Source: Microbacterium sp. YJN-G (GTDB taxonomy: Bacteria; Actinomycetota; Actinomycetes; Actinomycetales; Microbacteriaceae). Taken from it: a DNA stretch of 64,000 bases. The translations under genes were made by a program, and so were the position numbers. This document shows positions 23,758-54,307 of the stretch, piece after piece (the stretch's first letter is position 1; the number at the start of each line of letters is the position of its first letter). Location: contig NZ_CP060402.1 of NCBI RefSeq assembly GCF_015040615.1, positions 3,286,001 through 3,350,000 on the forward strand, in the 5' to 3' direction. Under the pieces are notes generated by a model. It was given only the letters and a program-made list of their open reading frames with translations, did not search any database and had not been told where the DNA came from.

Positions 23758-25008
23758 ATGCTCACCGACACATCCCTCGCCGACCAGCTCGCCGCGCAGC
23801 GGGACGACCGGCTGCGCGTGCTCATCGTGGGCGCCGGCATCGCCGGCATCACCCTCGCGCAGCTGCTGCGACGCGCCGGTCTGCACCCGGTGCTCATCGA
23901 CCGGATGCCGGCCATGGAGCACCCCGGCTACATGCTCGCGCTCATGCCCACCGTCGATCAGGCGTTCGTCGACCTCGGCATCCACGAGCAGTACCATGCG
24001 GCCGGCACGCCGATGGCGAGGTACTCGTTCCGCTCGCATCGTGGTCGCGTGCTGCGCACGGATCCGCTCGGCGAGCTGCTGAACGTGTACGGCGACTACA
24101 ACGGGATCTCGCGCGGAGCCCTCATCGAGGTACTCACCGCCGGCGGATGCCCGGTGACCTTCGGCCTGTCGATCGACCGGTCCGATGCGAGCGGGGTGCG
24201 CTTCGTCGATAGGGACGGCGCCGGGGTGGCCCAGGCCGCATTCGATCTCGTCGTCGGCGCCGACGGCATCCGCTCGCGTCTGCGTGCCGTGCTCGGCGCC
24301 GGAACGCCCGAAGTCGTCGAGACCGGCTGGTCGGGCTGGGTGGCGTGGGCCGACGACAGCGGCGACCCGGCGCTGGGTGAGGAGCTGTGGGGCGACGGCT
24401 TCTTCCTCGGCATGTACCCCGTGAAGGACAGGCTCGGAGTGTTCCTGGGTGGGCCGGATGCCGACCTCGAGGTCGGGCCCGCCGCGTTCGCGGCATCCGT
24501 GCGCGCCCGTGTCGACGAGCTCGGGCCGCGCCTGTCGGCATCCCTCGACGCCGTGGCCGCCGACCCCGATCCGTACCTGTGGCGGCTCGACGACGCACGG
24601 GTGGCGTCGTGGGTGCTGCCGCACGGCATCCTGCTCGGCGATGCGGCCGCGGGTTTCCTGCCGACCGCGGGGATCGGCGCGGGGATGGCCATCGAATCGG
24701 CGTGGATGCTGGGGCGGATGCTCGCCCGCGCCGACCGGGCGACGCTGCCCGCGGTGCTCGCCGCGTGGGAGCGGGTCGAGCGGCCCCGTGTCGAGGCCGC
24801 GCAGTCGAACTCGCGGATGCTGGCGAAGCTGATGTTCCGGCGCGGGCGGGTCGTCGCCTGGCTGCGCGAGACGGTGATGCGGATGCTGTCGGTGCGCGCG
24901 GCGCTCGGCCCGATCCTGCGCCTGGTCGCCACGCGTCCCGACCCCGACGCCGAGGCCGCCGCCGCCCTCGCCGCCGCCGGCTCCCCCGAGAAACCACATT
25001 CCGCATGA
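23758..25008 (+). CDS. FAD-dependent monooxygenase
   Basis: This is a 416-residue PHBH-type flavoprotein: VLIVGAGIAGITLAQLLRRAG (FAD-binding GXGXXG, about 21-41), DLVVGADGIRSRLR (DG motif, about 160), and GILLGDAAAGFLPTAGIGAGMAIESA (GD motif, about 295). Such enzymes hydroxylate aromatic or antibiotic-like substrates with NADPH. AGAGGAGG precedes the ATG. The C-terminal residues EKPHSA and the stop codon are encoded by a 70-bp palindromic repeat, so the tail has been replaced or extended by it. It is divergent from its TetR repressor. Confidence 0.88.
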   Translation: MLTDTSLADQLAAQRDDRLRVLIVGAGIAGITLAQLLRRAGLHPVLIDRMPAMEHPGYMLALMPTVDQAFVDLGIHEQYHAAGTPMARYSFRSHRGRVLRTDPLGELLNVYGDYNGISRGALIEVLTAGGCPVTFGLSIDRSDASGVRFVDRDGAGVAQAAFDLVVGADGIRSRLRAVLGAGTPEVVETGWSGWVAWADDSGDPALGEELWGDGFFLGMYPVKDRLGVFLGGPDADLEVGPAAFAASVRARVDELGPRLSASLDAVAADPDPYLWRLDDARVASWVLPHGILLGDAAAGFLPTAGIGAGMAIESAWMLGRMLARADRATLPAVLAAWERVERPRVEAAQSNSRMLAKLMFRRGRVVAWLRETVMRMLSVRAALGPILRLVATRPDPDAEAAAALAAAGSPEKPHSA

Positions 25009-25057
25009 AAAACCCGCTCAGACGTGGTTTCTCACGACGAATGTGGTTTCTCGCGGG
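24988..25057. repeat. 70-bp palindromic repeat, copy 1
   Basis: The copy starts GAGAAACCACATTCCGC and ends with GCGACGAATGTGG-type sequence followed by TTTCTCGCGGG, so the ends are complementary. An internal third GTGGTTTCTC is also present. A second copy lies at 25871-25940 with 64 of 70 bases identical. This copy overlaps the last codons and stop of the monooxygenase gene. Confidence 0.85.
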
Positions 25058-25097
25058 CGATGCGGGGTCGGGAGAGGTGCGAGGAGTTTGCATCCCT

Positions 25098-25122: not shown

Positions 25123-25446
25123 GTGACGAGCGGATCGAGAGCCGAGATCGACAGGGCGGGCCTTCCCCTCGCCGTGCTGTCGCTGCTCGCCGTCGCACCC
25201 GGGCACGGCTATGCGCTGATCGAACGTCTGCGCGAGCAGGGGTTCGAGCGCATCCAGGGCGGCACGCTGTATCCGCTGCTGCGCCGCCTCGAGGAACGCG
25301 GGCTCGTGCACCACGAATGGCTGCACGAGGAGAGCGGACCCGGGCGCAAGGAGTTCTCGATCACCGACGCCGGGCTGGCCGAGCTGTCGGCCGCGAGACG
25401 CGAATGGGCGCGGATGGGCGCGATCATCAACGGAGAAGGACGATGA
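25123..25446 (+). CDS. PadR-family transcriptional regulator
   Basis: This 107-residue winged-helix protein is of the PadR type: PLAVLSLLAVAPGHGYALIERL (about 15-36), GGTLYPLLRRLEERGLV (recognition helix and wing, about 46-62), and GPGRKEFSITDAGLAEL. Small PadR proteins repress their own operon. The GTG start lies directly after an imperfect palindrome and no ribosome-binding site is seen, so translation may be leaderless. The stop overlaps the start of the next gene (ATGA). Confidence 0.9.
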   Translation: MTSGSRAEIDRAGLPLAVLSLLAVAPGHGYALIERLREQGFERIQGGTLYPLLRRLEERGLVHHEWLHEESGPGRKEFSITDAGLAELSAARREWARMGAIINGEGR

Positions 25447-25850
25447 GCTACGAACAGGATCTGACCTTCGAGCTGCGGCTGCGCGGGCGCGACGAGACCG
25501 AGATCGCCGAGATCCTGCGCGAGGTGCAGGCGCACGGCACCGATGACGCGGACCTCGAGAGGGAGTTCGGCGCACCCGCCGAGTACGCCGCCTCGTTCGG
25601 CAGGAGCAGGCGCCGCACGCTCGGCGGCCGCATCACCGCCACGGCCGTGATCGTCGCGATCGCCTGGGTCGTGGGCTCGTTCGGCGTCGTACTCGTGCGC
25701 CGCCTCGCCTTCGGCATCGAACCCGTGTCGGGAGCGCTGCTCGGCTCGCCGTGGACCCTGGCGATCGCCGTCGTGATCGCCGCCGCCGGCGTGCTCGCCG
25801 GGTTCCTCGTGGACCGGCTGAGCCCCGTGCGGGGCCGCACCGGGGTCTGA
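25443..25850 (+). CDS. HAAS/DUF1700-like membrane protein
   Basis: This 135-residue protein has a charged N-terminal helical region (SYEQDLTFELRLRGRDETEIAEILREVQAHG) ending with EREFGAPAEYAASF, typical of HAAS domains that accompany small PadR regulators. Two membrane helices follow at about 65-88 and 100-122. It is coupled to padR by a 4-bp overlap. The pair probably senses envelope or membrane stress; the direct partner is not known. Confidence 0.7.
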   Translation: MSYEQDLTFELRLRGRDETEIAEILREVQAHGTDDADLEREFGAPAEYAASFGRSRRRTLGGRITATAVIVAIAWVVGSFGVVLVRRLAFGIEPVSGALLGSPWTLAIAVVIAAAGVLAGFLVDRLSPVRGRTGV

Positions 25851-25870
25851 GCGGGTCATCCGCCGCCTCT

Positions 25871-25940
25871 GAGAAACCACATTCCGCATGAGACACACGC
25901 TCAGGCGTGGTTTCTCGCGGCGAATGTGGTTTCTCGCGGG
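25871..25940. repeat. 70-bp palindromic repeat, copy 2
   Basis: Same orientation as the copy at 24988-25057, with six substitutions and no indels. It lies 20 bp after the membrane protein stop, so the two copies bracket the padR gene pair. The outer arms can fold into a long hairpin, and the copy may act as a terminator between convergent genes. Confidence 0.85.
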
Positions 25941-26001
25941 TGTTTCGGGGGTGCGGACCGGTCGAGCGACGCGGTGCGGGCGACGCGGGGCGCGACGCGG
26001 G

Positions 26002-27100: not shown

Positions 27101-28720
27101 TCAGGATGTCGGGAGCAGCAGCCCGTCCTCGATCAGCCGGCGGATGCGCGGCTCGAGGTCGGCCCAGAGGTCATCCAGCGGCACCTCGAACAGGTCGGAC
27201 AGGGCCGAGACGATCTGCACGACCGTCAGCTCGCCGTCGCACGCTCCGACGAAACCCGCCAGAGCGGAGTCGACGCTGATCGTGCGGGCGAAGCCGCCAC
27301 CCTGCCGCAGCTCGATCACACTCGGATGCTCACTGCCCGGCATGTGGTGGCGCGCCTCGGTCACGTCGGGTGCGACGGTGAGACGCTCCGGGATGCCGTC
27401 GGCGAGAGCATCATGCGCGGCCAGGCCCGCGCCGAGGGCGCGGCCGAGATCGGACACCGGCTGCGTGAGCGTCTCGAAGCGGCGGAGCCGGGTGGGTGTG
27501 TGGTGGGGCTCCGGCCCTTCGACAGGCTCAGGGACCCAGGTGGGCTGGGGCCCTTCGAGAGCCTCAGGGACCCAGGCGGGGTCGGGCCCTTCGAGAGCCT
27601 CAGGGACCCAGGCGGAGGCGGGGCGGCGGAGGAGGATGTAGCCGAAACCGATCGCGGTCACGCCGCGGGCGGTGAAGTCGTCGAGCCAGGCCGACAGCAG
27701 GCGCGAGAACCCGGCATCCCTCGGCAGCGTCCCGCCATCGCGGATCCACAGCTCGGCGTACGCCAGCGGGCTGAGCTCCTCGCGCTGGATCACCCACACG
27801 TCCAGGTCGTCGGCCACCCATGAGCGCACGCGCTCCATGCCCGGCTCGCCGTCGCGGGACTCCCAGTTGCCCAGCAGCTGCGCAACCCCGCCCGGGGTGA
27901 GGTGGTCGGGCGCCGCGCTCAGCACGCTCTCGACCAGCGCATCCCCGATCAGGCCGCCGTCACGGTATTCGTACTCCGGAACCCCGGTGGCGCGCGGGGT
28001 GATCACGAACGGCGGGTTCGAGACGATCAGGTCGAACGCCTCGCCGGCGACGGGTTCGAACAGGCTGCCGGCACGGAACTCGATGTTGTGCACGCCGTTG
28101 AGGTGCGCGTTCAGCTCCGCATAGGCGAGAGCGCGGTCCGAGATGTCGGTGGCTATGACGACGCGGGCGTGGCGCGAGACGAGCAGGGCCTGGATGCCGC
28201 ATCCGGTGCCCAGATCCAGCGCGCGCTCGACCGGAACAGGGATCACGAGCTCGGCGAGCGTCCGTGAGGCACCGCCGACCCCGAGCACATGGTCGGCAGG
28301 AAGGGATCCGCCCAGCGCGATCTCATCCAGGTCGCTGGCGATCCACCACTCGCCGACCCCATCGGCATCCACGAACGACTGCGGACGGATGATCGCCTGC
28401 GGCGCCACCTCACCGTGCTCCACCCGCGCGAGGCCGAGCGCGACGAGACCGTCGACGCCCAGTCGAGGCAGGGCGTGCTGCACAGCATCCTGCGGCTGCG
28501 GCATCCCGAGCACGAGGAGCCGTCCGAGCGTCGGCAGCGCATCACGGCGACCGGCGATCGCCCGCAGGATCGGCTCGCGCAGTCCGCGCCCGAGCGCGTC
28601 GTCGGCCTCCTCCCCCCACAGCCGCCGCAGCGGATCGGAACGGAAGTCCGCGGCATCCAGGTCGGCGGCGAGCGCCCTCGCGAGGGAGAGGTCGGGGCGG
28701 GGATGGTCACGATCCGGCAC
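27101..28720 (-). CDS. SAM-dependent methyltransferase with repeat insertion
   Basis: This 539-residue protein has a central methyltransferase of the small-domain/HemK-RsmC type: ALDLGTGCGIQALL (SAM motif I, about 165-178) and DLIVSNPPFVITPR (NPPF catalytic motif, about 230-243). An N-terminal ~140-residue domain and a C-terminal winged-helix-like domain flank it, an actinobacterial arrangement. Between the methyltransferase and C-terminal domains are three 12-residue repeats (WVPEALEGPDPA, WVPEALEGPQPT, WVPEPVEGPEPH) encoded by copies of a dispersed DNA repeat. The GTG start is 6 bp from TAAAGT, so the mRNA is leaderless. The substrate may be RNA or protein. Confidence 0.85.
   Translation of the reverse strand: MPDRDHPRPDLSLARALAADLDAADFRSDPLRRLWGEEADDALGRGLREPILRAIAGRRDALPTLGRLLVLGMPQPQDAVQHALPRLGVDGLVALGLARVEHGEVAPQAIIRPQSFVDADGVGEWWIASDLDEIALGGSLPADHVLGVGGASRTLAELVIPVPVERALDLGTGCGIQALLVSRHARVVIATDISDRALAYAELNAHLNGVHNIEFRAGSLFEPVAGEAFDLIVSNPPFVITPRATGVPEYEYRDGGLIGDALVESVLSAAPDHLTPGGVAQLLGNWESRDGEPGMERVRSWVADDLDVWVIQREELSPLAYAELWIRDGGTLPRDAGFSRLLSAWLDDFTARGVTAIGFGYILLRRPASAWVPEALEGPDPAWVPEALEGPQPTWVPEPVEGPEPHHTPTRLRRFETLTQPVSDLGRALGAGLAAHDALADGIPERLTVAPDVTEARHHMPGSEHPSVIELRQGGGFARTISVDSALAGFVGACDGELTVVQIVSALSDLFEVPLDDLWADLEPRIRRLIEDGLLLPTS
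27515..27612. repeat. Three in-frame copies of the dispersed repeat
   Basis: Copies of CCCTTCGA(C/G)AG(G/C)CTCAGGG plus ACCCAGG lie at 27515-27540, 27551-27576 and 27587-27612, exactly 36 bp apart. Read on the minus strand inside the methyltransferase gene they encode WVPE(AL/PV)EG three times. Confidence 0.95.
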
Positions 28721-34250: not shown

Positions 34251-34280
34251 CGGTGGGTCTTGGTGGCGGTCTGGCGGTTG

Positions 34281-34358
34281 CTGGGTCCCTGAGCCTGTCG
34301 AAGGGTCGTACTTGTTCAAGGGTGTCTACTTGGCTGGGTCCCTGAGGCTCTCGAAGGG
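34281..34358. repeat. Dispersed repeat, two inverted copies
   Basis: CTGGGTCCCTGAGCCTGTCG followed by AAGGG lies at 34281-34305, and a CTCTCG variant at 34334-34358. The two variants match the PVEG-coding and ALEG-coding versions inside the methyltransferase gene, in the opposite orientation. Between trxA and the small minus-strand gene nothing else is seen. Confidence 0.9.
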
Positions 34359-36698: not shown

Positions 36699-36983
36699 CG
36701 ACTCCTTTCGGGACCGTCTACCACTCTAATCGCGCGCCCCGACATGACGAAACGCACCCCCTCTTCCCCGCTCACCGAGCGTGGTGAAGCCGGCATCCCC
36801 CGGTCATTGAGCGAGGCGAAGCCGAAACGAAATGCCCCCACGGCCCACGCACTCGTTTCGTCTCGCTCCGCCCGCTCAACGACCAACCGGTCATGAGCGA
36901 TGAGCGCAGCGAGGAGACGAAATGCCGCCCGACGCGCACCTTCGTTCGCGGTGGGCCCCAAGCTCCTCCCCCGGGTCCTAGAC

Positions 36984-36997
36984 GTTTCACGTGAAAC
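36984..36997. other. parS site 2
   Basis: Perfect 14-mer in the first unit of the 313-bp tandem duplication. Confidence 0.97.
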
Positions 36998-37139
36998 ACC
37001 GACATTCTGCGTTTCGTCTCGCTCCGCTCGCTCAACGACCGGAACAGCACCGGTCATTGAGCGAGGCGAAGCCGAGTCGAAATGACCCTCCGCCCCACTC
37101 TTCCGATCGACCAGCCATCCGCCGAACGAGAGCGGCGAG

Positions 37140-37153
37140 GTTTCACGTGAAAC
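37140..37153. other. parS site 3
   Basis: Perfect 14-mer in the unique spacer between the two duplicated blocks. Confidence 0.97.
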
Positions 37154-37296
37154 ACCGATGGTGCGAGGTTTCGTCTCGCTCCGCTCGCTCAACGACCAAC
37201 CGGTCATGAGCGATGAGCGCAGCGAGGAGACGAAATGCCGCCCGACGCGCACCTTCGTTCGCGGTGGGCCCCAAGCTCCTCCCCCGGGTCCTAGAC

Positions 37297-37310
37297 GTTT
37301 CACGTGAAAC
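37297..37310. other. parS site 4
   Basis: Perfect 14-mer in the second duplicated block, 313 bp from site 2. Confidence 0.97.
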
Positions 37311-37431
37311 ACCGACATTCTGCGTTTCGTCTCGCTCCGCTCGCTCAACGACCGGAACAGCGCCGGTCATTGAGCGAGGCGAAGCCGAGACGAAATGCCC
37401 CCACGCGGCGCACGCAAACTTGAAGCACCAC

Positions 37432-37734
37432 TCAACGACCAGGGGTGGCGCGGAGCTTGCGCTCGCGTGCACTCCACCCTTTGATCGCGTCGAAACCGCC
37501 CTCGATGAACGCGAGACGCTTCGCGTGGCTCCACCCCTGGATCCGCTTCTCCAGCCCGAAGGCCTCATCGATCCGTTCGAACTCGTCGAACCACACCAGC
37601 TCCACCGGCAGCCGGCACGAGGTGTAGTTGCTGCCGAGCCCCTGAGCATGAGTCTCAAGGCGTCGGTGCAGGTCGCGTGTGCTGCCCACGTAGAAGGTTC
37701 CGTCGGAGCAGCGGAGGATGTAGACGTAGCCCAT
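37432..37734 (-). CDS. GIY-YIG nuclease family protein
   Basis: This 100-residue single-domain protein of the UPF0213 (YhbQ-like) group has YVYILRCSDGTFYVGSTRDLHRRL (GIY-YIG core at 3-14, with the catalytic Arg following) and EAFGLEKRIQGWSHAKRLAFI. Members are small DNA endonucleases with poorly defined roles. The start at 37734 is supported by homology and by TACCGT (37741-37746, minus strand) 6 bp upstream, a leaderless layout. It lies between parA and rsmG inside the parS region; the family is often seen as a mobile or accessory insertion. Confidence 0.88.
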   Translation of the reverse strand: MGYVYILRCSDGTFYVGSTRDLHRRLETHAQGLGSNYTSCRLPVELVWFDEFERIDEAFGLEKRIQGWSHAKRLAFIEGGFDAIKGWSARERKLRATPGR

Positions 37735-37793
37735 GCGAGGACGGTAGCTCGATCGTGTACGCCCATACCCCGCGCGGGGCGGCTGCTGTGGAT

Positions 37794-37807
37794 GTTTCAC
37801 GTGAAAC
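37794..37807. other. parS site 5
   Basis: Perfect site flanked by T and A, matching the 16-bp consensus. It lies between the GIY-YIG gene and rsmG. Confidence 0.97.
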
Positions 37808-37849
37808 AGCGAGATGTGCAGGGAGATACACCTACCCCCTCGCATCCAC

Positions 37850-37881
37850 GTTTCGTCTCGCTTCGCTCGCTCAACGACCGG
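37850..37881. repeat. TTTCGTCTCGCT repeat overlapping the rsmG stop
   Basis: The repeat GTTTCGTCTCGCTTCGCTCG, followed by CTCAACGACCGG, spans the last codons and stop of rsmG. The TGA inside the repeat (GGTCGTTGAGCGAG on the minus strand) is the stop codon. Further copies at 38560-38590 and 38616-38647 lie upstream of rsmG. Confidence 0.9.
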
Positions 37882-38515
37882 CGGGGTCACAGGCGCGGAC
37901 GCGGGCGCGGAAGACCCGGGTCGTGTCGGCGAGGACGTTCTCGCCGAGCACCTCGACCGAGACCTCGGTCACCTCGTGCTTGCGCAGCACCTTCTGCGCC
38001 GCTTCGATCTCGGCGGGCACGTTATGACCCTTGAGGAAGACCAGTTCCCCGCCATCCTTCACCAGCGGAGCGGTGATCGGGATCAGAGTCCGCAGTGCAC
38101 TCACAGCTCGTGCCGTCACCACATCGAACTCCAGGCCCACGTCCTCGGCGCGAGCGCGCATGATCGCGACATTGTCCAGACCGAGAGCATCCTTCTGCTC
38201 GGTCAGCCACGTCACGCGACGCTCCATCGGCTCGACGAGAGTCCACTGCACATCGGGCCGTGCGATCGCGAGAACCAATCCGGGAAGGCCAGCACCTGAG
38301 CCGATGTCGGCAACCGAGCCATGAAACAGAGGAGCCACGATCGCGGAGTTCAGGATGTGGCGCGTCCACAGACGAGGAAGCTCGAGCGGCCCGATCAGGC
38401 CACGCAACTCTCCCCCGGCAGCGAGGGCCGCGGTGAACCGGCGTGCAAGGTCGATGCGGTCACCGAAGAGCTCCGCCGCAGCGGCGGGCTCTGATTCGAC
38501 GATCGCGTCGGACAT
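37871..38515 (-). CDS. rsmG: 16S rRNA (guanine-527-N7) methyltransferase RsmG
   Basis: This is a 214-residue GidB/RsmG enzyme: PRLWTRHILNSAIVAPL and SAM motif DIGSGAGLPG at 70-79, then LVEPMERRVTWL and TARAVSAL. It methylates G527 of 16S rRNA; loss causes low-level streptomycin resistance. The start at 38515 has GGAG upstream. A longer frame to 38584 is only the translation of a dispersed repeat. The C-terminal codons and stop also lie in a repeat copy. Confidence 0.95.
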   Translation of the reverse strand: MSDAIVESEPAAAAELFGDRIDLARRFTAALAAGGELRGLIGPLELPRLWTRHILNSAIVAPLFHGSVADIGSGAGLPGLVLAIARPDVQWTLVEPMERRVTWLTEQKDALGLDNVAIMRARAEDVGLEFDVVTARAVSALRTLIPITAPLVKDGGELVFLKGHNVPAEIEAAQKVLRKHEVTEVSVEVLGENVLADTTRVFRARVRACDPAGR

Positions 38516-38559
38516 GTGGGGCTCCGGGGGTTCTGAAGAGTGGGTGGGTTGCGGTGGAC

Positions 38560-38647
38560 GTTTCGTCTCGCTTCGCTCGCTCAACGACCGAGACTACTCG
38601 ACCTGCTCGAAGGGCGTTTCGTCTCGCTTCGCTCGCTCAACGACCGG
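38560..38647. repeat. Two more TTTCGTCTCGCTTCGC repeats upstream of rsmG
   Basis: Direct copies at 38560-38590 and 38616-38647, the second ending 3 bp before parS site 6. They fill most of the jag-rsmG gap. Confidence 0.88.
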
Positions 38648-38649
38648 GC

Positions 38650-38663
38650 GTTTCACGTGAAAC
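38650..38663. other. parS site 6
   Basis: Perfect 14-mer directly after the jag stop codon, next to a TTTCGTCTCGCTTCGC repeat. It is the site closest to oriC. Confidence 0.97.
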
Positions 38664-46153: not shown

Positions 46154-48316
<2,163 letters not shown>

Positions 48317-48372
48317 TTGCCCAACTCCTCACACACCGCTGATCTCGGTGGTGACACAACTTCAGAACGCAA

Positions 48373-48463
48373 GGGATTGCGGATGCCGCGTGAGCGAGCA
48401 TCGGGAGGGGCCCGCGAAGCGGGAGGGAACCCGCTCTGCGAGCGAAGCGGCAGCCGCAATCCC
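48373..48463. repeat. Composite palindromic element, copy 1
   Basis: Arms GGGATTGCGGATGCCGC (48373-48389) and GCGGCAGCCGCAATCCC (48447-48463) match at 16 of 17 positions. They enclose a 57-bp GC-rich core containing GAGCGAGCATC, GGGAGGGGCCCGCG and CCCGCTCTGCGAGCG. A second copy of the core, inverted and with different arms, lies at 51641-51699. It sits in the gyrB-gyrA gap and would fold in the transcript. Confidence 0.85.
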
Positions 48464-48489
48464 GGCCCATGAGCACGGAAAAGACTGAA

Positions 48490-51096
48490 ATGACTGACGA
48501 AGAACGCCCCGAGCCGGCCCACGAGCACGGCCGCATCGACCAGGTCGACCTGCAGTCCGAGATGCAGCGCAGCTACCTCGACTACGCCATGGCCGTGATC
48601 GTCGGCCGCGCGCTGCCCGATGTGCGCGACGGCCTCAAGCCGGTGCACCGACGCGTGATCTACGGCATGTACGACGGCGGGTTCCGCCCCGACAAGTCGT
48701 TCTCGAAGTGCGCCCGCGTGGTCGGCGAGGTGATGGGTCAGTACCACCCGCACGGTGACACCGCGATCTACGACACCCTCGTGCGTCTCGTGCAGCCGTG
48801 GTCGCTGCGCTACCCGCTGGCTCTCGGCCAGGGCAACTTCGGCTCCCCTGGCAACATGGGCGCCGCAGCTCCCCGGTACACCGAGACGAAGATGGCTCCC
48901 CTCGCGCTCGAGATGGTGCGCGACATCGAAGAGGAGACCGTCGACTTCTCGCCGAACTACGACGGCCAGACGCAGGAGCCCGATGTCCTGCCCTCGCGCT
49001 TCCCGAACCTGCTCGTCAACGGCTCGATCGGCATCGCGGTCGGCATGGCGACCAATATCCCGCCGCACAACCTGCGCGAGGTGTCGGATGCTGCGCTGTG
49101 GGCGCTCGATCACCCGGGCCTTCCCCGCGAGGAGCTGCTCGACGGCCTCATCCAGCGCATCCCGGGTCCGGACTTCCCGACCGGCGCGCAGATCCTGGGC
49201 ACCAAGGGCATTCACGAGGCCTACCGCACCGGCCGCGGGTCGATCACGATGCGCGCGGTCGTCGAGGTGGAGGAGATCCAGGGCCGCACCTGTCTGGTGA
49301 TCACCGAGCTGCCGTACCAGGTCAACCCCGACAACCTGGCGGTGAAGATCGGCGAGCTGGCGCGCGACGGCAAGATCACCGGCATCGCCGACATCCGCGA
49401 CGAGTCGTCCGACCGCACCGGTCAGCGCCTGGTCGTGGTGCTCAAGCGGGATGCCGTGGCCAAGGTCGTGCTGAACAACCTGTACAAGCACACCCAGCTG
49501 CAGGACAACTTCGGCGCGAACATGCTGGCGATCGTCGACGGCGTGCCGCGCACGCTGGCGCTCGACGGCTTCATCACCCACTGGCTCGACCACCAGCTCG
49601 ACGTCATCGTGCGGCGCACCACGTTCCGGCTACGCAAGGCGCAGGAGCGGATGCACATCCTGCAGGCGTTCCTCAAGGCGCTCGACGCGCTCGACGAGGT
49701 CATCGCGCTGATCCGCCGCTCCCCCACGGTCGCCGAGGCGAACGAGGGACTGCGCCGGCTGCTCGACATCGATGAACAGCAGGCCGAGGCGATCCTGCTC
49801 ATGCAGCTGCGCCGTCTCGCCGCGATGGAGCGCCAGAAGATCATCGACGAGGCGACCGACCTCGAGGCGAAGATCGCCGACTACAAGGACATCATCGCCA
49901 CCGAGTCGCGCCAGCGCGACATCGTGCGCACCGAGCTCACCGAGATCGTCGACCGCTTCGGCGACGAGCGCCGCACGCACATCCTGCACGGGTTCGACGG
50001 CGACATGTCGATGGAGGACCTCATCCCCGTCGAGGAGATGGTGGTCACCGTCACCCGCGAGGGCTACATCAAGCGCACCCGCAGCGACAACTACCGTTCG
50101 CAGCACCGCGGCGGCAAGGGCGTGAAGGGCGCGCAGCTGCGCGCCGACGACCTGGTCGAGCACTTCTTCGTGACCACGACCCACCACTGGCTGCTGTTCT
50201 TCACCGACAAGGGCCGTGTCTACCGCACCAAGACGTACGAGGTGCCTGAGGCCGGCCGGGATGCCAAGGGTCAGCACGTCGCGAACCTGCTCGCGCTGCA
50301 GCCCGAGGAGAAGATCGCCCAGGTGCTCGCGATCAGCGATTATCAGGCGAAGGACTACCTGGTGCTCGCCACCCGCGGCGGCCTGGTGAAGAAGACCCGC
50401 CTGGGCGACTACGACACCAACCGTCAGGGCGGCGTCATCGCGATCCGGATGCGCGAGGGCGACGAGCTCGTCAGCGCGAAGCTCGTGAACGCCGACGAGG
50501 ACATCCTGCTCATCAGCGCGAAGGGCATGTCGGTGCGCTTCCACGCGACCGACGACGCACTGCGTCCGATGGGCCGCGCGACCGAGGGTGTACGCGGAAT
50601 GAAGTTCAAGGATGAGGAGGACTGCCTGCTCTCGGCATCCATCGTCGCCGAGGATTCGTTCGTGTTCACCGTCACCGACGGCGGCTACGCGAAGCGCACC
50701 ACCGTCGACGAGTACAAGGTGCAGAAGCGCGGTGGAACGGGCATCAAGGTGGCCAAGCTGAGCGACGAGAGAGGCGTTCTCGCGGGTGGTCTGATCGTCT
50801 CCGAGGACGACGAGGTCTTGGTGGTTCTGTCCAGCGGCAAGGTGGTACGCTCTGCCGTGGCCGAGGTGCCCGCCAAGGGCCGCGACACCATGGGAGTCGT
50901 GTTCGCCCGTATGACGGGCGATGACCGCATCCTCGCCGTGGCACGCAACAGCGAGCGCGGCATCGACGATGAAGACGAGTCGGATGCAGAGACCTCGGAG
51001 CCCCAGACCCCTGAGGCTCAGACCGCTGAAACCCAGAGCGCTGAGGCTCAGAACGCTGAGACCCAGTCCCCCGAAGTCGAGAACCCCGACGCCTGA
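48490..51096 (+). CDS. gyrA: DNA gyrase subunit A
   Basis: This 868-residue GyrA cleaves and rejoins DNA through Tyr130 in AAPRYTE. The quinolone-determining stretch is [12 protein letters not shown], with Thr91 and Asp95 at the positions of E. coli Ser83 and Asp87. The C-terminal beta-pinwheel includes the GyrA box QHRGGKG. The last ~40 residues are an acidic, Gln/Thr/Glu-rich tail of short imperfect repeats ([17 protein letters not shown]). The start at 48490 has GGAAAAG upstream; an in-frame ATG at 48469 is an alternative. Together with GyrB it introduces negative supercoils. Confidence 0.96.
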
Positions 51097-51117
51097 GACC
51101 TTGAAGAGAGCTGACCG

Positions 51118-51522
51118 ATGAGCACAGTGGCAGACAAGCTGGCGAAGAAGTCCACGCGCAGGACCAGCGGCAAGCAGGTGCGCCTGCGCCTGGTCTACGT
51201 CGACTTCTGGTCGGCTGTGAAGCTGTCGTTCCTCGGCGCGGTCGCGCTGGCGATCGTCACGATGGTGTCGTTCTTCCTCATCTTCATGGTGCTGCAGGCG
51301 ACCAACGTGCTGGCCCAGACCGGTGAGTTCCTCGACACGCTGACCGACGGCGCCGTCGACCTGCAGAGCCTGATCGGCCTGCCGCAGGTGATGGCGTTCG
51401 GCGCGGTCGTGTCGATCCTGAACCTCATCGTGTTCACGGTGCTCGGCGCCGTGCTCGCCGGCATCTACAACCTCGCGGTCAAGGTCACCGGCGGCCTGCT
51501 CGTCGGCTTCATGTCCAACTGA
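51118..51522 (+). CDS. DUF3566 membrane protein
   Basis: This 134-residue protein has a basic N-terminus (KLAKKSTRRTSGKQVRLRL) and two membrane helices at about 35-62 and 92-120 with a short loop between. DUF3566 proteins follow gyrA in actinobacteria, as here (21 bp gap); their function is unknown. The conserved linkage suggests a role near the membrane at the origin or division site, which is inference. Confidence 0.88.
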   Translation: MSTVADKLAKKSTRRTSGKQVRLRLVYVDFWSAVKLSFLGAVALAIVTMVSFFLIFMVLQATNVLAQTGEFLDTLTDGAVDLQSLIGLPQVMAFGAVVSILNLIVFTVLGAVLAGIYNLAVKVTGGLLVGFMSN

Positions 51523-51523
51523 C

Positions 51524-51581
51524 GACTGGGTCGCTGAGCCTGTCGCCTGTACTGAGCGAGCGTCAGCGAGACGAAGTGAAG
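51524..51581. repeat. 58-bp direct repeat, left copy
   Basis: The repeat begins GACTGGGTCGCTGAGCCTG and ends GCGAGACGAAGTGAAG. It recurs at 51735-51792 with two substitutions. It combines the start of the dispersed CTGGGTCCCTGAGCCTGTCG family with the AGCGAGACGAA end of the second repeat family. Confidence 0.92.
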
Positions 51582-51610
51582 CGCCCTTCCTCTTCGGAGG
51601 AGGGGCGCTT
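51579..51610 (+). terminator. Terminator of the gyrase operon
   Basis: AAGCGCCCTTCCTC (51579-51592) pairs with GAGGAGGGGCGCTT (51597-51610) around a TTCG tetraloop, with one wobble pair. It lies 57 bp after the DUF3566 stop. Confidence 0.85.
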
Positions 51611-51622
51611 TCTACGTTGGGC

Positions 51623-51717
51623 GGGTGCGGAGATGTTCCCTGCGCTCGCAGAGCGGGGGACCCCTCCCGCTGCGCGGGCCCCTCCCCGATGCTCGCTCCG
51701 GGAACATCTCCGCACCC
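51623..51717. repeat. Composite palindromic element, copy 2
   Basis: Arms GGGTGCGGAGATGTTCCC (51623-51640) and GGGAACATCTCCGCACCC (51700-51717) are perfectly complementary over 18 bp. The 59-bp core is the inverted counterpart of the core at 48390-48446, while the arms are unrelated to those of copy 1. Between DUF3566 and the next gene (331 bp) there are only this element, the terminator, the flanking 58-bp repeats and a promoter. Confidence 0.88.
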
Positions 51718-51734
51718 TCGGCACCTGTTCGCCT

Positions 51735-51792
51735 GACTGGGTCCCTGAGCCTGTCGCCTGTACTGAGCGAGCGCCAGCGAGACGAAGTGAAG
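51735..51792. repeat. 58-bp direct repeat, right copy
   Basis: Same orientation as the copy at 51524-51581, 211 bp apart. Together they bracket the terminator and palindromic element. Confidence 0.92.
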
Positions 51793-51820
51793 GGTTGCGT
51801 GATGGGAGGAGTGGGAGGAA

Positions 51821-51843
51821 TATAGTGAACGTCACGTTCACTA
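51821..51843. promoter_or_regulatory. Promoter with perfect 21-bp palindrome
   Basis: TAGTGAACGT (51823-51832) and ACGTTCACTA (51834-51843) are perfect arms around a central C. The -10 TATAGT (51821-51826) and the ribosome-binding site AAGGAG (51843-51848) overlap the ends. It is a likely site for the TetR protein encoded at the end of this operon. Confidence 0.85.
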
Positions 51844-51853
51844 AGGAGTTCGG

Positions 51854-54307
51854 ATGCGCACGGTGGTGGGGCTGGAGGAGCTGGGCCGACACGACCTGGC
51901 GGTCGCCGGCGGCAAAGGCGCCAACCTCGGGGAGCTGATCCGCGCGGGACTGCCCGTGCCGGGCGGTTTCGTGGTGACCACCGAGGCCTATGCGCAGGCC
52001 GCCGAGGCGGTGGGGCTCGCCGAGCGCGTCGACAGAGCGCAGCCTGAAGAACTGCGGCGGATGCTGAGCACAGCGCCCGTGCCCGATGCACTGCGCGATG
52101 AGATCTCGACGGCGTACCGCGCGCTCGGCTCTGACGTCGCCGTGGCGGTGCGCTCGAGCGCCACGGCCGAAGACCTTCCCGGTGCGGCGTTCGCCGGTCA
52201 GCAGGACACCTATCTGAACATCGTCGGAGCGGATGCCGTGATCGACGCGGTTCGCGACTGCTGGGCGTCGCTGTGGACCGACCGCGCGGTGTCGTACCGG
52301 CGCGAACGCCGCGTCGACCCGCACACCGTGCGCATCGCCGTCGTGGTGCAGACGCTCGTCGACTCGGATCTCGCCGGCGTGATGTTCAGCGCCGATCCGG
52401 TCAGCGGCGCTCGCGACCGCATCGTCGTCGACGGCGCCGCCGGTCTCGGCGAGGCCGTCGTCTCGGGCAGCGTCACGCCCGACCACTACCTGCTCGACGA
52501 CGAGGGAAACCGGCTCGAATACCGACCCGGGCGGGCCGAGGTCATCATCCGCCGGGATGCCGGCGGTGGCGTGCGCGAGGAAGCGGCGACGGCATCCGAT
52601 GCTCCGCTTCTCGATGCCGCACAGCTCCGGCAGCTCGCCGGATATGCCCGCGTCGCACAGGAGCACTTCGGGCGCCCGCAGGACATGGAATGGGCGATCG
52701 CCGACGGCGAGGTGTTCATCCTGCAGGCACGGCCGATGACCGCGCTGCCGCCCGAGCAGGCGAAGCTCAACAGCCGGCAGCGGGTGCAGTCCATGATCTT
52801 CAGTGAGTACCTGTCGGTGCGCCCCTACCCGCTCGATGTCACGACCTGGCTCGGCCGGGGACCTGCCGACATGATGCGCCAGATCACCGAGTACTTCGGG
52901 TTGCGCGGCGCGTTCCGCGACTATCTGCGCGAAGAGGACGGCGTCGTGACGGGGTTCACCGCCCCGAACCCGCATCCGGGGCCCGGTGCCCTGCTCGCGC
53001 CGTTCCGCATCGCGGCGAAGGCACGGCGGTTCCACCCGGAGGACTGGCAGGACGATCCGCGGCTCGCCCGCCTGCTGAGCGCCTCGGATGAGCTCGATGC
53101 CCTGCCGCTGGCCGACCTCAGCTGGCGCGACCTGCTCGCGGTGCCCGAGCGCGCGCTGGGGCTGATGGACATCAGCCGCGACATGCGGATCGACTACCTG
53201 CCCGGCGCGGGGCTCGCCATCGCCCGCCTCGCCATCGTGCTCACCCTGCTCGGACGGCGGCGGCTGCTCGGCGCCCTCACCGGCGGCGCCCCCACCCGCA
53301 CCGCGGACTCGGAGCAGGCGCTCGTCGAGATGGCCGCGATGGTGCGAGAGGATGCCGCGCTGCGCGCCCTGCTCGCCGAGCGCACCCCGCAGGAGGTCGT
53401 CGAGACGCTCGGCGAAGGAGGCCACCCGGTGTTCGCGGATGCCCTCGCCGGGTATCTGCGCGAGTTCGGCCGCAAGGAGACCGCGTCTCCGCTGCTGGTC
53501 AGCCCGCCGACGCTCGCCGAGTCGCCTGACGTGATCGTGGGGATGGTCGCCGGCTTCGTCGACCACGAGCCCGAGACCGATCGGCGATCCGGGTCGGAGC
53601 AGGCGCTCGAGCAGCTGCTCCGTCACCCTCTGCTGCGCTGGCGTCCTCTGCGCACGGCGGTGCGCCGGTGGGTGCGGGCCGCACAGGCCGGCGTCGCCTA
53701 CCGGGAGGACAGCCACTTCTACTTCACGGCATCCCTTCCGGCGCTGCGCCGGGCGCTGCTCGAGATCGGACGGCGCCTGCAGCTCGCCGGCGTGGTCGAC
53801 GAGGCGTTCGACGTGTTCCATCTGCGCTGGGATGAGCTGACGAGCATCCGGGATGTCGCTGCCCTCACCGACGGCGAGGTGAGCCGCCTGCGTGGACTGG
53901 TCACCGAGCGGGCGGCGAAGCGGGCGGAGCTGGCCGGCATCCCCGTGGTCGACGTGCGCGCGGTCTTCGACAGGGATCCGCACGACGCGGCCGTCGTGAC
54001 CGGCGCCCCGGCCGGCGGCGGGACGGCGACCGGCCCGGCGCGGGTGATCCGGGATGCCGCGGACTTCCACCTGCTGCAGGACGGCGATGTGCTCGTGTGC
54101 CCGTACACGAATCCCGCGTGGACTCCGCTGTTCCTGCGTGCCTGCGCGGTGGTCGTCGACACCGGGTCCATCGCCTCGCATGCGGCGATCGTCGCGCGCG
54201 AGTACGGGCTGCCCGCTGTGATGGGCACCGGCGACGGCACCCGCGTGCTGACCGACGGCGAACGCGTCACAGTCGACGGGATCACCGGGACGGTGACCCG
54301 TGCCTGA
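51854..54307 (+). CDS. PEP synthase-like phosphotransferase (rifampin phosphotransferase-like)
   Basis: This 817-residue three-domain enzyme has an N-terminal PEP/pyruvate-dikinase ATP-grasp domain (about 1-300: VAGGKGANLGELIRAGLPVPGGF, VRSSATAEDLPGAAFAGQQDTYLN, FILQARPM), a long middle region, and a C-terminal swivelling His domain with TGSIASHAAIVAREYGLPAV, phospho-acceptor His776. Length and layout resemble rifampin phosphotransferases, which move phosphate from ATP to the antibiotic, rather than true PEP synthase, which ends in a TIM barrel. The substrate is unknown. It is controlled by a promoter palindrome and overlaps the TetR gene by 8 bp. Confidence 0.8.
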   Translation: MRTVVGLEELGRHDLAVAGGKGANLGELIRAGLPVPGGFVVTTEAYAQAAEAVGLAERVDRAQPEELRRMLSTAPVPDALRDEISTAYRALGSDVAVAVRSSATAEDLPGAAFAGQQDTYLNIVGADAVIDAVRDCWASLWTDRAVSYRRERRVDPHTVRIAVVVQTLVDSDLAGVMFSADPVSGARDRIVVDGAAGLGEAVVSGSVTPDHYLLDDEGNRLEYRPGRAEVIIRRDAGGGVREEAATASDAPLLDAAQLRQLAGYARVAQEHFGRPQDMEWAIADGEVFILQARPMTALPPEQAKLNSRQRVQSMIFSEYLSVRPYPLDVTTWLGRGPADMMRQITEYFGLRGAFRDYLREEDGVVTGFTAPNPHPGPGALLAPFRIAAKARRFHPEDWQDDPRLARLLSASDELDALPLADLSWRDLLAVPERALGLMDISRDMRIDYLPGAGLAIARLAIVLTLLGRRRLLGALTGGAPTRTADSEQALVEMAAMVREDAALRALLAERTPQEVVETLGEGGHPVFADALAGYLREFGRKETASPLLVSPPTLAESPDVIVGMVAGFVDHEPETDRRSGSEQALEQLLRHPLLRWRPLRTAVRRWVRAAQAGVAYREDSHFYFTASLPALRRALLEIGRRLQLAGVVDEAFDVFHLRWDELTSIRDVAALTDGEVSRLRGLVTERAAKRAELAGIPVVDVRAVFDRDPHDAAVVTGAPAGGGTATGPARVIRDAADFHLLQDGDVLVCPYTNPAWTPLFLRACAVVVDTGSIASHAAIVAREYGLPAVMGTGDGTRVLTDGERVTVDGITGTVTRA

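Follow-up and report, generated by a model that had tools for sequence, protein, structure and literature searches.

What keeps the two arms of a hairpin complementary when the letters of those arms differ from one copy to the next? The question is raised by a stretch of 64,000 nucleotides from Microbacterium sp. YJN-G (NZ_CP060402.1, positions 3,286,001 to 3,350,000; hereafter the window), in which two copies of a palindromic element flank gyrA, one in the gyrB-gyrA gap and the other 3' of the small gene that follows gyrA. The element is best read as a new, genus-restricted family of extragenic hairpin repeats of the ERIC/REP kind. Its members may punctuate the spaces between genes, chiefly at the RNA level, a reading to which we assign a probability of a little under one half (about 0.48).

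The original prediction described a common core in opposite orientation, with arms complementary within each copy, and both features can be read directly from the sequence. The three core blocks that it quoted are present in both copies, and the cores are 88% identical across 56 bases, with a few substitutions and inserted bases separating them. When up to 3 mismatches were allowed, a 19-base pattern of the core matched only these two copies in the window, and none of 100 shuffles gave two matches. The further claim that the arms are wholly unrelated between copies holds for the freer letters inside a frame and fails for the frame itself, which is loose but kept across the family: AGGG outermost, then GGGATG, and CCC beside the core. 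The YJN-G genome contains six full copies, every one with complementary arms; a single pair, L002 and L003, is identical in its arms.

A DNA search of 198 Microbacterium genomes gave matches in 49, with four candidates scored per genome among the matches listed, so that copy numbers are lower bounds. A profile search of all fetched DNA (E ≤1e-4) gave 144 distinct matched sequences. A core-pattern scan of one genome per species across 84,980 species returned 71 stretches, of which 70 are titled Microbacterium; the remaining one is titled Actinomycetales bacterium SN12 and comes from a genome placed in Microbacterium. Among the best 13 of hundreds to thousands of candidates scored per genome in other genera, no family member was found, and the three low-score matches outside the genus (L159-L161) resemble, by eye, another repeat or coding DNA. 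At the sensitivity used, the family is restricted to Microbacterium, a result that comes mainly from the 84,980-species scan because the scoring in other genera covered the best 13 candidates per genome. A viral origin was rejected after an exact-pattern search gave no matches in viral contigs, as was a plasmid or phage origin after blastn with window copy 1 as query gave none in plasmids and phages. Rfam 15 gave no match at the element (window 47800-52200; 10 loci), which sets aside a known Rfam RNA, and a literature search found no paper on this Microbacterium hairpin.

The element is about 100 nt long and is predicted to fold as a single long hairpin. Its consensus runs from AGGGCGnnGGGATGTTCCCG through the core, GAGYGAGCATCGGGAGGGGCCCGCGAAGCGGGAGGGAACCCGCTCTGCGARCG, to AAGGGAACATCCCnGnGCCCG and then a C-rich tail, and the position profile of 121 copies places the limits of conservation about 20 nt to the left and 26 nt to the right of the core. 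The top of the hairpin is nearly fixed: it has purine-rich internal loops containing G/A mismatches, another small internal loop is U/YUC, and the apical hairpin, rich in G/C, carries a purine-rich loop. Among 36 copies, 38 columns are invariant, and one core pair covaries (C-G in 22 copies and U-A in 12). The C-rich tail is conserved only on the right flank, at +22 to +26 of the core, and could pair with the G-rich apical loop as a candidate pseudoknot. A G-quadruplex was rejected as the conserved feature, since the gyrA-site variants L084, L105, and L153 lack the G-runs.

The arms pair better within copies than between them. Over the inner 11 arm positions, a mean of 10.07 are paired in 123 copies, against 6.95 after right arms are dealt to other copies with equal offset freedom and an equal demand for two starting pairs. 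The condition that the original prediction set for its own refutation, a lack of arm complementarity in other copies, did not overturn it: 121 of the 123 pair at six or more of the 11 positions, two pair at fewer than six, and eight at fewer than eight. In 36 chosen copies, whose own alignment also supplied the structure of 28 pairs, 94.2% of cells are paired and two-sided changes occur in 15 of the 28 pairs. The covariation score is 0.303, compared with 0.108 for shuffled copies and at most 0.065 for slid partners, where pairing drops to 32-49%. On five covariation measures, none of 500 shuffles, which do not control for relatedness, reached the observed values. The arms covary at orthologous sites as well, in the recF and gyrA leaders; at the gyrB-gyrA site they read GGATGCCGC/GCGGCATCC, GGAATCTCGTC/GACGAGATTCC, and GGAATCTTCTC/GAGAAGATTCC in three species. 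Selection for the hairpin, one of the explanations first offered, is supported by these comparisons, which favour arms that form a maintained helix with largely free letters. The family offers a clean natural example of a helix that persists although much of its sequence may vary, both at many sites within a genome and at shared sites in different species.

Variants of the hairpin differ in stem or apex. L154 (G111), L200/L280 (G010), and L279 (G058) have different long stems below a similar top; the stem of L200/L280 contains two mismatches and that of L279 spans 24 bp with none. An ATCGGGrrGGG...CCCCG(T)TCT-like top motif, clearest in L200 and L279, occurs in all of them, and the common top and outer purine loop suggest that they are distant kin of the family. 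In L084, L105, and L153, the apical hairpin differs en bloc from that of other gyrA-site copies, and the close relatives L084 and L123 have near-identical arms with different apical hairpins. These block-wise differences suggest gene conversion between copies, and exchange between copies within one genome also happens. At the recF site, L128 (11904-11984) contains a sequence like R1, another repeat of the window (Table 1), in place of the apical hairpin, as though a repeat had been inserted into another repeat's loop.

Eleven gene neighbourhoods, which were named by eye from protein sequence or by match to window genes, account for 110 of the 144 matched sequences, and 34 lie elsewhere. Recurrent sites show near-constant orientation. 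At seven named gene starts, all 63 copies are in the sense orientation (recF 16, gyrA 15, parA 10, gpmA 10, metG 7, clpC 4, radA 1). In the convergent crgA/rhomboid gap, 19 of 20 copies share one orientation and L272 has the opposite one. At three gene ends every copy is antisense (rsmG 14, DUF3566 7, trxA 6). Among 97 copies with two clear neighbours, 37 lie between tandem genes in sense and 17 in antisense, 23 between convergent genes, and 20 between divergent genes; 11 of 111 copies overlap a reading frame from the automatic gene calls and do not enter this count. The divergent and tandem-antisense placements mean that the element also lies antisense upstream of some genes.

Use of the folded strand, most likely as RNA, would explain why the helix is kept. 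In such a role, the 5' and 3' arms would form a long helix of largely free letters bearing the nearly fixed top, placed in leaders or between genes (gyrB-gyrA, dnaN-recF, and before parA, metG, gpmA, clpC, and radA) and also at the convergent ends of crgA and the rhomboid gene. The folded element would separate the fates of adjoining messages through processing, stability, or read-through, as ERIC is reported to do in Yersinia. The spread of copies would have been infrequent, with segmental duplication as the route at least once, and copies would then have been inherited with compensatory change in the arms.

An RNA role makes a prediction about the arms: the top-strand RNA would be the folding strand, and so G·U pairs should be tolerated above A·C. 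In 121 copies, G·U exceeds A·C by 40 to 20 (p = 0.013, uncorrected). For the inner stem, 83 copies give 20 to 5, with 15 of 98 left out for gapped arm alignment; a parse that leaves out 53 of the 144 gives 23 to 10 in 83 copies. A loose arm alignment that includes loop positions gives 43 to 37. By site, the counts are 15 to 6 at gene ends and 19 to 10 at gene starts, an excess at least as large at the ends. The arms appear to have a weak excess of G·U.

Several observations weigh against an RNA role. The G·U excess falls to 30 against 18 (p = 0.11) when one change per site is counted once and to 33 against 19 (p = 0.07) under a stricter pairing threshold, and the copies are related by descent and not independent. 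The position profile of 121 copies contains no position-specific promoter-like stretch 5' of the element and no T-run 3' of it; an intrinsic terminator was rejected on the latter ground. The antisense copies at the rsmG, DUF3566, and trxA ends have an identical core nonetheless, and the 17 copies antisense to both neighbours and the 20 between divergent genes point the same way. A general role in messages also leaves unexplained the clustering of copies near the replication origin (oriC). Sense copies at the named starts favour RNA while the antisense sites and the oriC concentration favour DNA, and for this reason RNA is placed first at a probability under one half.

The concentration near oriC was measured from dnaN for all 124 copies listed from the 198-genome search, a count in which inherited sites recur and shared descent is uncorrected. 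Within 50 kb of dnaN lie 71 copies, 53 of them within 10 kb; 19 share the dnaN contig but lie beyond 50 kb, 31 are on different contigs, and three belong to a genome without a dnaN match. A copy near dnaN is present in 42 of the 49 carrier genomes, and seven of the eleven named neighbourhoods lie there. In 15 genomes whose dnaN contig is the whole or most of a chromosome (lengths rounded for G004, G021, and G099), 18 of 36 copies lie in the near-dnaN region, which makes up about 3% of the sequence there, and a near-dnaN copy is present in 12 of the 15. Should it survive a tree-aware test, this concentration would indicate a role in origin-region biology.

A serious but less likely rival is a role at the DNA level, in which the top strand would be extruded or single-stranded close to the origin. 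Its fixed top would be bound by a protein of nucleoid, replication, or topology function, and the arms would need only to pair. The oriC concentration and the mixed gene orientations speak for this role, as does a contrast with R2, a repeat with 172 copies in the YJN-G genome (≤2 mismatches) whose listed copies, unlike those of the element, are dispersed across the chromosome. The uniform sense orientation at seven gene starts, the 19 copies beyond 50 kb and the 31 on other contigs, and the mild preference for G·U speak against it. Inherited copies inflate the clustering, and the bias is not unique to the element, since seven of nine copies of R1 in the same genome (≤3 mismatches) also lie near oriC in one local array. 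Palindromes of the REP, BIME, and ERIC kinds have long posed the open question of whether selection acts on RNA or DNA, and this family offers a testbed for it.

It is unlikely that the element is a selfish short mobile hairpin whose arms must pair without fixed letters, either because a candidate transposase reads the folded top or because the core enters hairpin loops, with the oriC concentration reflecting target choice. The matched sequences outside the named neighbourhoods and the ends of the conserved unit, at about -20 and +26 of the core, fit mobility, as do divergent (local inverted) pairs of the element in the rsmG-parA gap of several other carriers. No copies were found in viral contigs, plasmids, or phages, and many copies are old and orthologous. 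A Y1 transposase (PF01797, RAYT) is absent from all 49 carriers and matched in only one of 198 genus genomes, the non-carrier G041; other transposase kinds were not searched, and the same search matched five of 14 control genomes. RAYT mobilisation was accordingly rejected.

The gyrB-gyrA site bears on mobility most directly. Of 53 chosen rows placed on a gyrA tree, 15 have the element in this spacer, and one supported clade of 25 contains 14 of them; presence requires 7 gains or losses compared with 13.4 when labels are shuffled. Most gyrB-gyrA copies probably share an ancestor, both arms having changed in step since. Of the 38 spacers without the element, 27 contain no known repeat, seven contain R1, and four contain R2, which makes whole-spacer replacement look likelier than clean insertion and excision. 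Inspection by eye and a search for short stems found no clean empty site among the 38. The proposal that the core was inserted into the loop of an older hairpin draws a little support from one of them, L185, which has a bare 11-bp perfect stem, CGGATGCGGCG, with a 2-nt loop; one of 200 shuffles reaches this length, and the stem letters resemble the arms of some carriers. Among the other spacers, 36 have no perfect stem of at least 7 bp with a 2-8 nt loop, and L187 has one of 7 bp. Palindromes of other repeat families with longer loops do occur in element-free spacers. The proposal that insertion itself creates the arms is not supported, because at fixed sites the two arms change together, and the identical arms of L002 and L003 belong to a segmental duplication, which includes the 3' end of the upstream gene at 88% identity and leaves the element stretch identical.

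A further idea, decidedly unlikely, would make the origin-proximal hairpins a genus-specific chromosomal address. A dedicated protein would bind the folded strand, as nascent RNA or as single-stranded DNA near the start of replication, and link origin firing or segregation to expression of dnaN, recF, gyrA, and parA.

Complementarity might also persist with no selection at all. Quasi-palindromes are corrected by template switching, and such correction would keep drifting arms complementary, consistent with near-perfect pairing despite varying letters. This explanation is improbable: the conserved G/A mismatches and small asymmetric loop of the top stay uncorrected, the 38 columns remain invariant, and there is a mild preference for G·U. 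Control of gyrA by a gyrase-specific leader that responds to supercoiling or gyrase is highly improbable, for although all gyrA-site copies are sense and, of the 13 for which gyrA has a called start, 11 are 18-51 nt 5' of it (measured from 25 nt past the core), the spread of the same element to recF, parA, metG, gpmA, clpC, and gene ends largely refutes it, and the element is missing from the gyrB-gyrA spacer in 38 of the 53 rows (27 with no known repeat, 11 with another repeat).

The closest known kind in form is ERIC/IRU of enterobacteria, an intergenic single long stem-loop of about 127 bp that in Yersinia is reported to regulate adjoining genes through RNA hairpin folding (PMC2267715). Both are intergenic single long hairpins of about 100-130 nt, a likeness of form only; the Microbacterium element differs in phylum, in its largely free arm letters and fixed top, and in its oriC concentration. 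REP, BIME, and REPIN sequences are likewise extragenic palindromes, and some families have complementary stem changes or alternative stems (PMC3733652, PMC8266576, PMC3116915). A REP spans 20-40 bp, has a stem of 5-13 bp, and bears a GTAG or CGTC tag (PMC3733652), whereas the Microbacterium unit measures about 100 nt and has arms of some 20 nt and AGGG...CCCG edges. The flank position profile of 121 copies contains neither tag, and the lack of a Y1 transposase in carriers separates the element from REP/RAYT systems. Like structured leader RNAs of the Rfam type, it has fixed loops in a covarying helix and several copies in leaders; unlike them, it also occurs at gene ends and in antisense, serves no single gene class, and has no Rfam 15 match at the loci covered. 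MITEs are marked by terminal inverted repeats common to their copies, by target duplications, and by empty sites; the arms of this element differ between copies, and the 38 element-free spacers contain no clean empty site.

The features of the window are collected in Table 1. The window presumably contains the dnaA-dnaN-recF-gyrB-gyrA region, as judged from gene order and protein sequence.

Table 1. Positions of the hairpin copies, neighbouring genes, and other repeats in the window
Feature	Position	Strand	Remark
Hairpin element copy 1	48373..48463	+	gyrB-gyrA gap, co-oriented with gyrA
Copy 1 5' arm, 17 nt	48373..48389	+	16/17 paired with 48447-48463
Copy 1 conserved core (GAGCGAGCATC ... CTGCGAGCG)	48392..48444	+	
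Copy 1 3' arm, 17 nt	48447..48463	+	
Hairpin element copy 2	51623..51717	-	3' of small post-gyrA gene, antisense to that gene
Copy 2 5' arm, 18 nt	51700..51717	-	18/18 paired with 51623-51640
Copy 2 conserved core	51643..51698	-	
Copy 2 3' arm, 18 nt	51623..51640	-	
gyrB	46184..48316	+	Putative, named from gene order and sequence
gyrA	48469..51096	+	Putative
Small membrane protein gene, DUF3566-like	51118..51522	+	Putative; adjoins gyrA on its 3' side
R1 repeat (CGTTTCGTCTCGCTTCGCTCGCTCAACGACC)	36854-38656		Seven copies around rsmG-parA gap
R2 repeat (CCCTTCGACAGGCTCAGGGACC)	2039, 27513-27619, 34280-34358		

The probable true start of gyrA is at 48490 (ATGACTGACGAA), 26 nt past copy 1. A second small hairpin (CACCGCTGATCTCGGTG) lies 5' of copy 1 at 48334-48350 and has counterparts in the gyrB-gyrA spacers of several carriers. 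Copy 2 is flanked by a pair of 58-nt direct repeats that are 97% alike (51524-51581 and 51735-51792). Elsewhere in the window, a palindromic repeat with GAGAAACCACATTC arms is present in two copies, 86% alike, at 24977-25067 and 25860-25950, flanking a small open reading frame (ORF) at 25317-25850. A 162-nt tandem repeat at 1-577 lies inside the ORF at 9-1121, which likely encodes a repeat protein.

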